Position numbers and translations under genes: made by a program. The notes beneath the pieces were generated by a model that searched no databases, was not told where the DNA came from, and saw nothing but the letters and a program-made list of their open reading frames with translations. A stretch of DNA of 44,248 nucleotides from Acidobacteria bacterium RIFCSPLOWO2_02_FULL_67_21. GTDB taxonomy: Bacteria > Acidobacteriota > Vicinamibacteria > Vicinamibacterales > UBA2999. Each line of letters begins with the position of its first letter. The stretch's first letter is position 1. Location of the stretch: positions 48,733 through 92,980 of the forward strand of contig MEKU01000005.1 of assembly GCA_001767195.1 (NCBI GenBank). Reading direction: 5' to 3'. Positions 1 through 40,137 of the stretch are shown in pieces.

Positions 1-885
1 ATCCCGAACGTCAGCGAAGGACGGCGGCAGGATGTGGTCGCGACGCTGGTCGACGCCGTCCGGCGCACGCCGGGCGTACGCCTGCTCGATCACTCCTCCG
101 ACCCGGCCCACAACCGATCCGTGCTGACGATGGCGGGCGACGCGCCCGCTCTCAAGGCCGCCGTACTGGCGCTCTTTGGCGCTGCGCTGCCTGCGATCGA
201 CCTGCGCACGCACTCCGGCGAGCACCCCCGAATTGGCGCCGTCGACGTCGTCCCTTTCGTGCCGATCGAGGGCGCCACGATGGCCGACTGCGTCGCGCTC
301 GCACGGGAGACGGCCCAGGCCGTGGCACAGCGGTTCCAGGTGCCGATCTACCTGTACGAAGACGCGGCCACGGATCCGGCACGGCGGAATCTCGAGGACA
401 TCCGCCGCGGCGAGTTCGAAGGGCTGGCCGGCAAGATGGCCACCGCCGGCTGGACGCCTGATTTCGGGCCCGGCGCGCCGCACCCGAGCGCTGGCGCGTC
501 CGCCATCGGCGCGCGGATGCCGCTCATCGCGTACAACATCAACCTCGCCACCGATCGGCTAGACGTCGCCAAGCAGATCGCCGCTGCGGTGCGCTCCAGC
601 AGCGGCGGGTTCCGGTACGTGAAGGCGATGGGCGTGCGGCTCGAGCATCGCGGAATCGTCCAGGTCTCCATGAACCTGACCAACTACGAGAAGACGCCGA
701 TCCTTCGCGTCTTCGAGGCGGTCAAGACCGAAGCGGCGCGCCGCGGCGTCAACGTGCTCGAGAGCGAGATCGTCGGGCTCGTGCCGGCGGCCGCGCTGAT
801 CGGCACCGCGCAGCACGTCCTGCAGCTCACGTCGTTTACGCCTGAGCAGATTCTCGAGAATCGACTTCGCGAGACCTCGATTTAG
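1..885 (+). CDS. ftcD: Glutamate formimidoyltransferase, 5' end outside window
   Basis: Transfers the formimino group of N-formimino-L-glutamate to tetrahydrofolate, a late step of histidine breakdown, in the cytoplasm. The frame is open from base 1 and begins with IPNVSEGRR, a motif that normally lies about eight residues from the N-terminus, so only the first few codons are missing. The GTG at 34 is internal and is not the start. Residues HSGEHPRIGAVDVVPF and the later PHPSAGASAIGAR are family signatures and carry the histidines expected at the active site. The gene stops at 883-885 after 294 visible codons. There is no C-terminal cyclodeaminase domain, so this is the single-function bacterial form rather than the fused animal form. 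No other histidine-degradation gene is visible. Confidence 0.93.
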   Translation: MPNVSEGRRQDVVATLVDAVRRTPGVRLLDHSSDPAHNRSVLTMAGDAPALKAAVLALFGAALPAIDLRTHSGEHPRIGAVDVVPFVPIEGATMADCVALARETAQAVAQRFQVPIYLYEDAATDPARRNLEDIRRGEFEGLAGKMATAGWTPDFGPGAPHPSAGASAIGARMPLIAYNINLATDRLDVAKQIAAAVRSSSGGFRYVKAMGVRLEHRGIVQVSMNLTNYEKTPILRVFEAVKTEAARRGVNVLESEIVGLVPAAALIGTAQHVLQLTSFTPEQILENRLRETSI

Positions 886-12626: not shown

Positions 12627-12664
12627 GGCTCAAGGCCCAAGCGCCCTAAATTAAGGCTCGACAA

Positions 12665-12700
12665 GGGCGGATCCGCAGTGCGCGGACCCGCCCTATTTTT
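12665..12700 (+). terminator. Intrinsic terminator of groES-groEL
   Basis: Twelve-base-pair GC stem with one mismatch (12665-12676 with 12682-12693), loop AGTGC, then TATTTTT. It lies 38 bases after the groEL stop. Its stem resembles the GGCGGGTCC/GGACCCGCC palindrome family, so the terminator may have grown from one of those elements. Confidence 0.9.
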
Positions 12701-12710
12701 CCGTGTGTGG

Positions 12711-12803
12711 GGCGGGTCCCGCCGCGAGTCTCGATCGCGGCCCTTCTCCTGACGTGGGGCGAGGCCGCCTCGAGTTTCGATTGCATCGAGCGGCGGACCC
12801 GCC
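12711..12803. repeat. Palindromic element with GGCGGGTCC/GGACCCGCC ends and two inner hairpins
   Basis: Perfect nine-base inverted ends (12711-12719, 12795-12803) enclose two further hairpins: GCCGCGA/TCGCGGC (12721-12727, 12735-12741) and an imperfect one around 12764-12795. The layout parallels the 73-base element at 39328-39400. There is no open frame in it. It fills the gap between the groEL terminator and yjbQ. Confidence 0.75.
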
Positions 12804-12809
12804 GACCCG

Positions 12810-13226
12810 TCACTCCCCCAGAACCTGTACGACGAGGTCCCTTCGGCGCGGGCGGGTGTCGAACTCGATCAGCACGACCTGCTGCCAGGTGCCGAGCGTC
12901 AGCACCCCGTCGATGATCGGGACGGTGATCGAGGGGCCGAGCAGCGCGGCGCGGACGTGGCTCGATCCGTTGTCGTCGCCCCAGCGCAGATGGTGAGCGT
13001 ATTGCCCGTCGCGGGGCGCCAGCGCCTCGAAGACCCGGTTCAAGTCCGCCACGGCGCCAGGCTCGAACTCGATCGTGGTCACGCCGGCCGTGGAGCCGAC
13101 GACGAATACCGTTGCCATGCCCGACCGAATCCCGGACGCCGCGACTGCTGCCGCAACCTGATCGGTCACGTCCCGCGTATCGCCCTGCCCTTTCGTGGAG
13201 ACTTCGACCTTCTGCGTCGCAACCAT
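12810..13226 (-). CDS. YjbQ-family protein (UPF0047)
   Basis: Member of the YjbQ/UPF0047 family; the E. coli protein has weak thiamine-phosphate synthase activity, and the physiological role is unsettled. From the ATG at 13226 the product has 138 residues, the usual size. Family features are STAGVTTIEFEPG (about 45-57), the stretch NGSSHVRAALLGPSITVP, then LGTWQQVVLIEFDTRPRRRD near the C-terminus. The usual HTT before AGVT is GST here, so one histidine often seen in the family is missing. An upstream ATG at 13238 would add four residues. The REP-like cluster lies directly upstream and the palindromic element directly downstream. Confidence 0.9.
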   Translation of the reverse strand: MVATQKVEVSTKGQGDTRDVTDQVAAAVAASGIRSGMATVFVVGSTAGVTTIEFEPGAVADLNRVFEALAPRDGQYAHHLRWGDDNGSSHVRAALLGPSITVPIIDGVLTLGTWQQVVLIEFDTRPRRRDLVVQVLGE

Positions 13227-13257
13227 GGCGCGCAGCATAACGCGGTATTCGCGGTCG

Positions 13258-13482
13258 TACGTAGTGCCGGGCTTCAGCCCGGCCGATGACCCGCTGGTGC
13301 AGTACGTAGTGTCCGGCTTTAGTCAGATTAGCCGGACTTGGCGCGTCCACGCGTACGCGCGCGGCGAGCCGGCTCGCGTCGCGGCGCAGGCGCGGCGGCA
13401 CTCAGGCCCGGCTGAAGCCGGGCACTACGTACAAAGCGGCGGGTGTCATTGGTCAGGCTGAAGCCGGGCACTACGTACGTAC
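13258..13482. repeat. REP-like cluster of four TACGTAGTGCCGGGCTTCAGCC copies
   Basis: Four copies of a 25-36 base palindromic unit fill most of the gap between yjbQ and the TonB gene. Two read forward (13258-13284, 13303-13338) and two reverse (13404-13431, 13453-13482). Each has a TACGTAGTG head and a GGCTTCAGCC-type hairpin. The second copy carries an extra TCAGAT in the loop. Head-to-head pairing of copies is typical of REP/BIME clusters moved by RAYT transposases, but no such gene is present here. Confidence 0.88.
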
Positions 13483-18549: not shown

Positions 18550-18577
18550 CTACCAACTACCGACTACCAACTACCGA
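18550..18577. repeat. Tandem 14-base repeat spanning the gck stop and rnr leader
   Basis: Two perfect copies (18550-18563, 18564-18577) of CTACCAACTACCGA. On the coding strand each copy supplies two GGTAG units. The first TAG is the glycerate kinase stop, so its last residues (GSW) come from repeat DNA. The second copy ends directly before the RNase R start and offers GGTAG as its ribosome-binding sequence. Confidence 0.85.
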
Positions 18578-19856
18578 CGAGTATGACCTGCAGGTCGCCG
18601 ACATTCGTGCCGGTCGGCCCGGTACGGATCAGATCCTCGAGCCGCTCGAAGAAGAGATAGCTGTTGTGCTCGGCGAGGTACCGCTCAGGCGGCCCGATGC
18701 CGGCGGCAGCAGCGCGGGCCAGCGTGGTGCTGTCGACGATCGCGCCGGCCGCATCGGTGGGGCCGTCGATCCCATCCGTGCCCACGCTGGCCGCGGCGGC
18801 CGGCACGCCGAGGGCCTCAAGCCCGCGAGCCAGCGCAAGCGCGCACTCCTGGTTCCGCCCGCCCTTGCCGGTCCCGGTGGTTCGCACGGTCGTCTCACCG
18901 GCTGAAAGGATGCACAGCGGAACGACGGGTCCGCGGTTCGATGGATCATCGCCAAACCGCGGGACCCGCCCCACGTACTGAAGGAGGCGCCGGGCGGCCT
19001 CGCGCGCCTCGCCCGTGATCGGCTCGTCGACGAGGTGCACCGCGTAGCCGCGCGCGGCCGCGGCGGCGCCCGCCGCGCCGAGGGCGGTGCGTGCGCTTCC
19101 GATCACGCGCGCGGCCACACGCCCCAGTCGCGGGTCGCCCGGTTTGGGCGTCTCTTCAAGCTCGCCCGCGGCGCCACGCGCCAGCCGCCGGACGACCGCG
19201 TCGGGATATGCCGCACGTCCGCCGTACCGATCGAGCGCAGCCAGCGCCTCGCCAAATGTCGTGGGATCGGGCACGGCCGGCCCCGACCCGATCGCCGACA
19301 GGTCGTTACCGACGACATCTGAGAGCGCCAGCGTCAGGGTTGCCCCCGGGGACGCCGCCGCGAGCCAGCCCCCCTTGATCGCCGAGAGGTGCTTCCGGAC
19401 CGTGTTGAGATCGTGAATCTCGGCGCCGAGCGACAGCAGGTGCTGCGACGTCCGCTGCTTGTCGGCGAGCGTCAGCCCGTCGGCCGGAAGTGCCACGATC
19501 GAGGACGCGCCGCCGGAGAGCAGGAGCACGAGCAGATCGCCATCCGCGCCGGCGCGGGCCACGTCGAGCAGACGCTGTGCGGCACGCATGCTCCGCCCGT
19601 CAGGCACGGGGTGCGCGGTGGTGTGCCACTCCACCCCCGGCAGCGGCGCGGCAGGCGGGTCGGCCGACACGCCAACCGCGCGGCGGACGGAGACGGCCGA
19701 TCCCTCCAGAAACGCCCGGAGCATCGGCGCCGCCGCCTTGCCGGCGGCCACGACGTCAACCGCAGCCGCCGTCCGTAGCGCCGCGTTCACGTCGGGCGCG
19801 GCGAGCGCCCGACGCGCGAGCACACCGGCATCGACAGCGTCCAGCGCCGTACGCAC
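18564..19856 (-). CDS. Glycerate 2-kinase (MOFRL/DUF4147 family)
   Basis: Phosphorylates D-glycerate to 2-phosphoglycerate; the family also contains proteins once called hydroxypyruvate reductase (TtuD). The 430-residue protein has the N-terminal domain motifs VVAAGKAAAPML (about 35-46), HPVPDGRS, VLLLSGGASSIVALP (about 109-123) and LSAIKGGWLA. The C-terminal MOFRL domain has LSAGETTV (about 319) and GKGGRNQECALALA (about 333). The stretch at about residues 297-311 is encoded by a palindromic element (18926-18968) and looks like an insertion in a surface loop. GTG 19856 is used as the start, although the frame continues upstream, where family-like residues (LREDLAALV) suggest a rare start such as CTG 19901. 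The C-terminus runs into a tandem repeat. Confidence 0.9.
   Translation of the reverse strand: MRTALDAVDAGVLARRALAAPDVNAALRTAAAVDVVAAGKAAAPMLRAFLEGSAVSVRRAVGVSADPPAAPLPGVEWHTTAHPVPDGRSMRAAQRLLDVARAGADGDLLVLLLSGGASSIVALPADGLTLADKQRTSQHLLSLGAEIHDLNTVRKHLSAIKGGWLAAASPGATLTLALSDVVGNDLSAIGSGPAVPDPTTFGEALAALDRYGGRAAYPDAVVRRLARGAAGELEETPKPGDPRLGRVAARVIGSARTALGAAGAAAAARGYAVHLVDEPITGEAREAARRLLQYVGRVPRFGDDPSNRGPVVPLCILSAGETTVRTTGTGKGGRNQECALALARGLEALGVPAAAASVGTDGIDGPTDAAGAIVDSTTLARAAAAGIGPPERYLAEHNSYLFFERLEDLIRTGPTGTNVGDLQVILVGSW
18926..18968. repeat. Palindromic element inside the glycerate kinase coding region
   Basis: Inverted ends CGGGTCC (18926-18932) and GGACCCG (18962-18968) enclose further pairing, GCGGTT with AACCGC, around a loop at 18939-18954. 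It is translated in frame as part of GRVPRFGDDPSNRGP. The ends match the family at 12711-12803. Confidence 0.7.
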
Positions 19857-39318: not shown

Positions 39319-40085
39319 CGATCGGACGCCGGGTCCGAACCGGCCTCCGCTGAAGCTTCGGCGGTCCGCCGTAGCCTTGGCGAAGGCGGAAGGACCCGGC
39401 CTACAGGCCTCTCGAGCAGCGGCTCGATCGCGCGCCAGATGGTCTCGTGAACGATCCGTGCTCCCTCCGCGTTCGGGTGGATGCCGTCGCCGTTGTTGAG
39501 CTCCGGCACGCCGGCGACGCCTTCCAGGAAGAACGGCACGAAGACGACGTCGTGGTCGGCGGCGAGATCGCGGAAGGCGCGGCGGAATTCCGACGTGTAC
39601 ATGGGGCCGTAGTTCGGGGGCGCCTCCATGCCGGTCAGCACGACCGCGATGCCCCGCGATCGGGCGGCGCCGATGATCTCGTCCAGGTTGCGCTGCATCT
39701 GCGACACGGGCAGGCCGCGCAGGCCGTCGTTGGCGCCGAGCTCGACGACCAGAATCTCGACGTCGCCATCGAGCGCCCATTCCAGCCGGCGCAGGCCGCC
39801 TGCCGATGTGTCGCCCGAGACGCCCGCATTGACCACCTCGTAGCGATAGCCTTCGGCATCGAGCCGCGCCTGAATGAGCGAGGGCACGGCCTGCGCGCGC
39901 GGCAGCCCGAGCCCCGCCGTGAGACTGTCGCCGAGGAACACAATGCGCGGCCGCGATGAGACCGCTGCGTCAACCGCGGCCGCCTCGACGCGTCCCGCCG
40001 ACCCGTCCCCCGCCGTGTCCGTCGGCGCACACGCCGCCGCCAGCAGTGGCAGCACGAACAGCAGAAAGCGGAGGATCATGCTCAT
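39315..40085 (-). CDS. tesA: TesA-like SGNH hydrolase, predicted lipoprotein
   Basis: Exported lysophospholipase/arylesterase of the TesA type, 256 residues. The N-terminus ends in a lipobox (PLLAAAC, Cys19), so it should be a lipoprotein, unlike soluble periplasmic E. coli TesA. Blocks I, II, III and V of the SGNH fold are seen: FLGDSLTAGLG with nucleophile S54, NAGVSGDTSAGG, VELGANDGLRG with the oxyanion Asn, and GDGIHPNAEG with the Asp/His pair. The normal domain ends near residue 225. The remaining tail (about 229-252) is encoded by a palindromic repeat element at 39328-39400. It overlaps the ybbA-like gene as ATGA. Another member of the element family lies just before its start. Confidence 0.92.
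39328..39400. repeat. Palindromic element coding for the TesA C-terminus
   Basis: Perfect nine-base inverted ends GCCGGGTCC (39328-39336) and GGACCCGGC (39392-39400) enclose two inner hairpins: CCGCTGAAGCTTCGGCGG and, at 39366-39389, CCGCCGTAGC..CGAAGGCGG. The second unit recurs at 16256-16280. The 73 bases are read in the tesA frame as its last 24 or so residues. Same layout as 12711-12803. Confidence 0.8.
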
Positions 40086-40090
40086 GTAGG

Positions 40091-40110
40091 GCGGGTCCTT
40101 GTGGACCCGC
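40091..40110. repeat. GCGGGTCC-TTGT-GGACCCGC hairpin before tesA
   Basis: Eight-base perfect arms (40091-40098, 40103-40110) with a four-base loop, five bases upstream of the tesA start in the transcript. It equals the ends of the larger palindromic elements joined by a tetraloop, and could affect translation of tesA. Confidence 0.75.
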
Positions 40111-40137
40111 TATCTCATTCTCATTGTAGTCCCGTGA

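Follow-up and report, generated by a model that had tools for sequence, protein, structure and literature searches.

A GTRG-tagged family of REP palindromes and its matching RAYT gene in an acidobacterial genome of the Vicinamibacterales

The recurrent palindromes of the window, the whole 44,248-nucleotide stretch analysed here (G000:C5:48733-92980, from the 4.19 Mb, 107-contig genome of an uncultured bacterium), belong to a family of GTRG-tagged REP repeats, very probably dispersed as single-stranded DNA hairpins by a RAYT transposase encoded on another contig, C26. The repeat is of the known REP/RAYT kind; what is new is the host group and the high share of copies inside genes, and a GTRG REP family together with its matching RAYT is hereby documented in the Vicinamibacterales. 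The original prediction had proposed a non-autonomous mobile palindrome moved by a RAYT-type enzyme located elsewhere, and such an enzyme, with matching flanks, is indeed present; mobility itself is deduced from empty sites, and cutting and transfer by this enzyme, and its current activity, are presumed.

The REP unit is about 54 bases long: a 5' GTGG or GTAG tag precedes a 14-bp stem, in which a single base is bulged, and the loop measures 19-21 bases. Reading of the copies gives the order GTGG/GTAG, GGCGGGT, the bulged base, CCGCCGG or CCGCGGC, the loop, and a complementary arm ending in ACCCGCC, the GTGG/GTAG start often lying within GTACGTGG. The stem classes CCGCCGG/CCGGCGG and CCGCGGC/GCCGCGG, plus a GCCGGGT variant, interchange with compensating changes. 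In the alignment of copies, 98.6% of the stem cells are paired, and double-change cells number 39 versus 13.8 in shuffles, with none of 500 shuffles as high. The G, T and G of the tag are invariant in 30 of 30 aligned copies (alignment A1), which were gathered with a pattern demanding a tag-like head; among the genome-wide model matches listed, 117 of 125 carry GTGG or GTAG, most of them GTGG. This tag before the arm is the motif that defines the family, and the ends described in the original prediction begin after it. The openness of the 54-mer in all six frames was considered as an adaptation and set aside, because about 30% of 54-mers at this G+C are open in this way by our own estimate.

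Five of the six window sites that had been grouped by their inverted ends are members of one family (Table 1); the units at 18924-18978 and 12750-12803 are its strong members, and those at 40086-40111 and after groEL are short forms. The sixth, 1095-1107, is a 13-base palindrome (GGCGGGACCCGCC) with neither tag nor loop, gives no match to the covariance model of the family (R1), folds no better than shuffles do (z -0.33) and was not accepted as a member. The bare 13-mer is rare, with 0.05 expected in shuffles, and may be a very decayed half-element. The 93-base site at 12711-12803, previously read as one element with two inner hairpins, is instead a truncated unit followed in tandem by a whole one, so that its outer ends stem from different units. 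This truncated-then-full plan recurs at L002, L003, L004, L005 and L018. In all of these tandem arrays, the one in the window included, every unit except the last is without the distal 3' arm, and the regularity of the truncation point may be a trace of the way in which units are added.

The common plan attributed to the two long copies was not borne out, because the palindrome inside the tesA copy is another one (GCCTTCGCCAAGGCTACGGCGG...). Although R1 scores the tesA element weakly, the tag and 9-bp arms are there, and relatives show a clean empty site. A palindrome inside this element (CTTCGCCAAGGCTACGG..., window 39350-39390) recurs once in the sampled DNA (L034:11427) and may represent a third family of repeats, nested in the REP. 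A further weak R1 match at window positions 69-115 (16.7 bits) was judged to be due to chance, and an Rfam scan of the window returned no family.

Table 1. Positions of the REP elements of the window, of the RAYT gene and of genes hosting in-frame REPs (window positions unless a contig or locus is named)
Feature	Coordinates	Strand	Details
REP hairpin, probably shrunken, then T run, just downstream of groEL	12661..12700	+	R1 17.8 bits (match 12666-12700, minus)
Truncated first REP unit of tandem, without own distal 3' arm	12703..12749	+	Tag GTGTGTGG, 5' arm, loop; R1 22.4 bits at 12703-12723
Full REP unit, groEL-UPF0047 spacer	12750..12803	+	R1 41.7 bits, E 1.5e-7
Full REP in frame in glycerate kinase (18564-19856, minus)	18924..18978	-	Encodes QYVGRVPRFGDDPSNRGPV; R1 62.7 bits, E 4e-12
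REP-like element, tesA C-terminus	39328..39408	-	Arms GTAG-GCCGGGTCC...GGACCCGGC, foreign inner palindrome; R1 17.0 bits, E 0.23; fold z -4.2
Short REP	40086..40111	+	GTAG tag, GGCGGGTCC arm, TTGT loop; R1 18.8 bits (match 40082-40111); fold z -4.9
RAYT gene, 156 residues	C26:53521-53991 (L033:8521-8991)		Motifs MPDHVHLL and YIVWNP
In-frame REP host, cysS	L004:1108-2646		
In-frame REP host, trpB	L042:15368-16735		
In-frame REP host, pheT	L339:1571-3682		
In-frame REP host, dnaX	L333:1495-3549		
In-frame REP host, uvrA	L324:4-2970		
In-frame REP host, lpxK	L374:1652-2788		

The profile scan suggested for the genome and its relatives revealed a count far above chance. With positions 12705-12810 as query, blastn against the own genome yielded 55 matches, the best apart from self at E 6e-11, and R1, which was built from 30 copies, nearly all of them outside the window, found at least 125 copies at E<1e-3. 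Among the 59 relatives searched, R1 matches occur in 12 of 35 members of the same family, such as G014 (87 copies), G013 (61), G026 (60), G022 (44) and G015 (25), and in none of the 23 genomes that represent other families in the order and served as negative controls. Within the window, GGCGGGTCC occurs 7 times against 1.7 expected, a number reached in none of 100 shuffles, and 4 cases of facing GGCGGGTCC/GGACCCGCC-type ends at most 100 bases apart compare with an expectation of 0.013, none of 300 shuffles having as many. Close neighbour pairs among the at least 125 copies (at most 200 bases apart) are inverted with facing tags in 22 of 25 cases and direct in three, and none has its tags outward. 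Most copies among the matches listed are singlets, found alongside these inverted pairs and a clean insertion of a pair in trpB.

Two genes of the genome match Pfam PF01797 (Y1_Tnp); they are 51% identical and each has its own REP type, a low copy number that speaks against IS-like self-propagation. The gene on C26 is bracketed by two inverted REP pairs (53380-53433 with 53436-53489, and 54005-54059 with 54103-54156), and is the transposase gene with matching flanks that had been sought. It scores 114.9 bits with the NCBIfam equivalog REP_Tyr_transpos (NF047646, cut-off 80), its nearest solved structure is PDB 4er8 (TnpArep in the PDB table, E 4e-5), and it has the HUH motif with a single catalytic tyrosine, the Y1 transposase fold and the Y---NP signature. 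Its classification as an IS200/IS605 insertion sequence was rejected: it is single copy and scores 33 with NF033573, below the cut-off of 55. The flanks of the second gene, on C10, carry a different family, GTAGTGCCCGGCTTCAGCCGGGC. This second GTAG REP family (GTAGTGCCCGGCTTCAGCCGGGC and GTAGTGCTTGGCTTCAGCCAAGC) has sites in L034, L036 and L041, and also in the window beside the UPF0047 gene (13257-13283, about 13404-13432, and 13450-13478).

The RAYT genes of G013 and nzgw81 are likewise flanked by R1 REPs, and that of nzgw81 (L044:2001-2519) holds an in-frame REP between the HUH and tyrosine motifs. Most of the close RAYT homologues examined in related Vicinamibacterales carry their own lineage-specific tagged hairpins. 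In the tree, RAYTs with GGCGGGT/GCCGGGT flanks separate from those with GTAGTGCCCGG-type flanks with support of 100/99, the groups being assigned by eye from the flanks. G015, with its 25 R1 REPs and no detectable RAYT, holds an orphan REP population, so REP residence does not need a resident enzyme.

An explanation that dispenses with transposition would have the repeats spread through recombination among palindromes already present, or through replication slippage between them, with the RAYT as a mere REP-collecting gene. The truncated tandem units do resemble the products of slippage or local duplication, and the orphan REPs of G015 fit as well. Nevertheless, the copies are dispersed to unrelated unique sites, the RAYT homologues come with tagged hairpins of their own, and the family flanking the C26 gene is the abundant one in the genome, which makes this route improbable and favours dispersal by the RAYT.

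Orthologous loci show the presence/absence variation that the original prediction had expected of a mobile element, at tesA, at 40090, at the 93-base element, and in the glycerate kinase, trpB and cysS genes. Since the own genus is represented by this genome alone among those searched, the comparisons are between genera. The tesA copy is absent in 13 of 13 relatives, whose homologues end at residue 226-228 of 256; in most of them the stop overlaps the ATG of the next gene, and in the window about 80 extra bases lie in frame directly before the same stop. This empty site was read from the homologue C-termini, MAFFT having misaligned the short tesA flanks. At 40090, about 24 bases present in the window are absent from the aligned site in G026 and G011 (0 of 2), and the 93-base element is absent from the orthologous groEL-UPF0047 spacer of G011 (0 of 1). 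The REP in glycerate kinase is common only to G015, the nearest relative (42.2 bits), and is absent from the other relatives.

Insertions of more than one unit are found in protein-coding genes. In trpB, a facing pair accounts for 36 added residues shortly before KREDLTHTGAHK and is absent in 14 relatives, G015 included, while three tandem units add about 53 residues to cysS and are also absent in 14 relatives. The cysS genes of G012 and G002 (L275, L279) carry other inserts at the same linker, and this loop of CysS seems to be an insertion hot spot. In a ccmD-like gene, two tandem units follow the signal segment and are absent in ten relatives. A MITE with terminal inverted repeats and target-site duplication was considered and rejected, with no duplication apparent by eye at the tesA or 40090 junctions, as would be anticipated for HUH enzymes. 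Because clean filled and empty sites exist for pairs, singles and tandems alike, the unit of movement can be tested.

The family is both intergenic and intragenic, as had been noted from the few copies in the window. Predicted genes enclose 44 of the 125 copies listed, and another 20 overlap gene ends, which leaves 61 intergenic copies; these calls come from a simple codon-usage gene predictor, and the intragenic share of about a third is approximate because a few of the 44 gene calls are doubtful. Where an intergenic copy has an adjoining gene 3' end, it lies within 13 bases of that end in 34 of 55 cases, and in eight of the copies overlapping gene ends it is the TAG within the tag that serves as the stop codon.

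The site downstream of groEL offers a stepwise view of how a mobile hairpin can turn into a terminator. In the window it forms 12 pairs at -24.4 kcal/mol (z -3.7 against shuffles), and at the corresponding position, without change of orientation, REPs are present in G015 (64.9 bits), G022 (62.4), G026 (52.8) and G011 (33.7). The REP that adjoins groEL is full in G015 and G022 and shorter in G026, and in G011 and the window it is reduced to a short hairpin, followed by a T-rich stretch; the hairpins of other genera at this place are unrelated. The simplest reading of these sequences is a REP that has shrunk in place and that probably acts as a terminator. A simple terminator scan missed this hairpin and marked a stretch inside 12750-12803 instead, and was treated as uninformative. 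The graded decay from full element to bare hairpin postulated earlier is supported for the groEL terminator by the length series in sister genera, but less so for the tetraloop form at 40090, which is the standard form beside RAYTs in other genomes (L043, L125) and need not be a decay product.

The T run after the groEL hairpin and the crowding of intergenic copies at gene 3' ends would also be expected if the palindromes were functional RNA hairpins, either terminators or 3' stabilisers of mRNA, which had arisen and spread by selection without transposition. This is very unlikely to account for the family, in which about a third of the copies lie inside genes and in either orientation, inverted pairs and truncated tandems are formed, an unpaired GTRG tag is conserved, and REPs stand on both sides of the RAYT gene. 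The in-frame empty and filled sites in trpB, cysS and tesA disfavour it further.

Besides those listed in Table 1, the hosts of intragenic copies identified by Pfam (trpB as a PALP-type gene) include mutS2, RNase E/G, ETF-QO, LigD, GlgE and a TamB-Omp85 fusion. Same-sense intragenic copies use the three reading frames in a ratio of 15/10/1, the rare frame being the one where the tag is a codon. It is conceivable, if rather doubtful, that the REP/RAYT system works here as a natural linker-insertion engine, with 54-bp hairpins entering genes in frame and about a third of them encoding 18-36 extra residues. If so, it would reach essential enzymes such as CysS, PheT, DnaX and, shortly before the HTGAHK active-site motif, TrpB, and the GTGG heads, free of the in-frame TAG found in GTAG, would make the repeat coding-compatible. 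The protein insertions are presumably harmless. With so unusually high a share of in-frame copies, essential genes included, the label 'extragenic' becomes questionable, and natural examples of tolerated protein insertions are at hand. A family akin to the Rickettsia palindromic elements (RPE), selected to insert in coding genes, would likewise reside in frame in many genes with units of about 54 bp, or 18 codons, that are open for the most part in the frames used; it is scarcely credible here, as genes still hold fewer of the repeats than typical bacterial coding density would lead one to expect, the tag of the repeats is GTRG and not the CGTC of Rickettsia REPs (PMC3733652), and the intergenic majority hugs stop codons.

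Under the preferred explanation, dispersal by the C26 RAYT, this HUH/tyrosine enzyme would recognise the folded strand via the 5' GTGG/GTAG tag and the bulged stem, nick beside the tag, and copy or transfer the hairpin either singly or as an inverted pair with facing tags. Copies would settle where they do little harm, namely within about 13 bases past stop codons, at stops supplied by the TAG of the tag, and in in-frame protein loops. Once settled, they would mutate, shrink, and could serve as transcription terminators, as may have happened after groEL. The TnpA-REP of E. coli recognises a single-stranded hairpin with a GTAG tag and a bulge, cuts at a CT beside it, and tolerates no change in GTAG (PMC8266576). 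Tag recognition by the C26 RAYT must differ somewhat, because most tags here are GTGG. For a Marinomonas enzyme, a change of GTAG to GTGG altered the cut dinucleotide (PMC8266576). By analogy with the E. coli enzyme, the C26 RAYT might move GTGG/GTAG hairpins in single-stranded form, perhaps cutting at other dinucleotides.

Among known systems, the closest are the REPtrons of the GTAG REP superfamily, such as the REPs of E. coli and the SMAG repeats of Stenotrophomonas (PMC3733652, PMC8266576). They share with the present family a GT(A/G)G tag, a bulged or perfect stem-loop, high copy number, inverted pairs, a RAYT flanked by repeats, a preference for gene 3' ends, and stop codons supplied by the TAG of the tag. 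Here, however, the tags are mostly GTGG, the loop has 19-21 bases, about a third of the copies are intragenic, and the facing tags correspond to the TT type, which was the rarer one in the earlier survey (PMC3733652). In that survey GTAG repeats are listed in Proteobacteria, Cyanobacteria, Chloroflexi and the PVC group, and for Acidobacteria only TIR-flanked enzymes (PMC3733652). The REPINs of Pseudomonas fluorescens are similar in being inverted doublets tied to a single-copy RAYT, the doublet being the probable mobile unit there (PMC3116915). They differ in their location: in strain SBW25 only 14 of the 1,067 commonest 16-mers overlap genes (PMC3116915), in contrast to the intragenic copies counted above.

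Intragenic REPs, including some in uvrA and tRNA synthetases, are known in other species (PMC3733652). In Opitutus terrae and the systems of subclass 2.4/2.8 TnpA-REP, they reside in frame in housekeeping and DNA-repair genes (uvrA, tRNA synthetases, ligase), as here (PMC3733652, PMC6006769). Subclass 2.4 enzymes can also have a REP inside the RAYT gene (PMC6006769), as does L044 between its HUH and Y motifs. These systems belong to other phyla and have other REP sequences. The palindromic elements of Rickettsia (CGTC REPs, RPE-4/RPE-6; PMC3733652) are also short palindromes kept in frame in proteins, but they bear a CGTC tag instead of GTRG and have no dedicated transposase. Finally, the acidobacterial TIRYT and class 3 TnpA-Y1 elements come from the same phylum and combine Y1 enzymes with flanking repeats, with about 600 structures in Solibacter (PMC3733652, PMC6006769). 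They are characterised by long TIRs or atypical CnGA-tagged structures and a Y----Q signature, whereas the family described here combines a GTRG tag with Y---NP.
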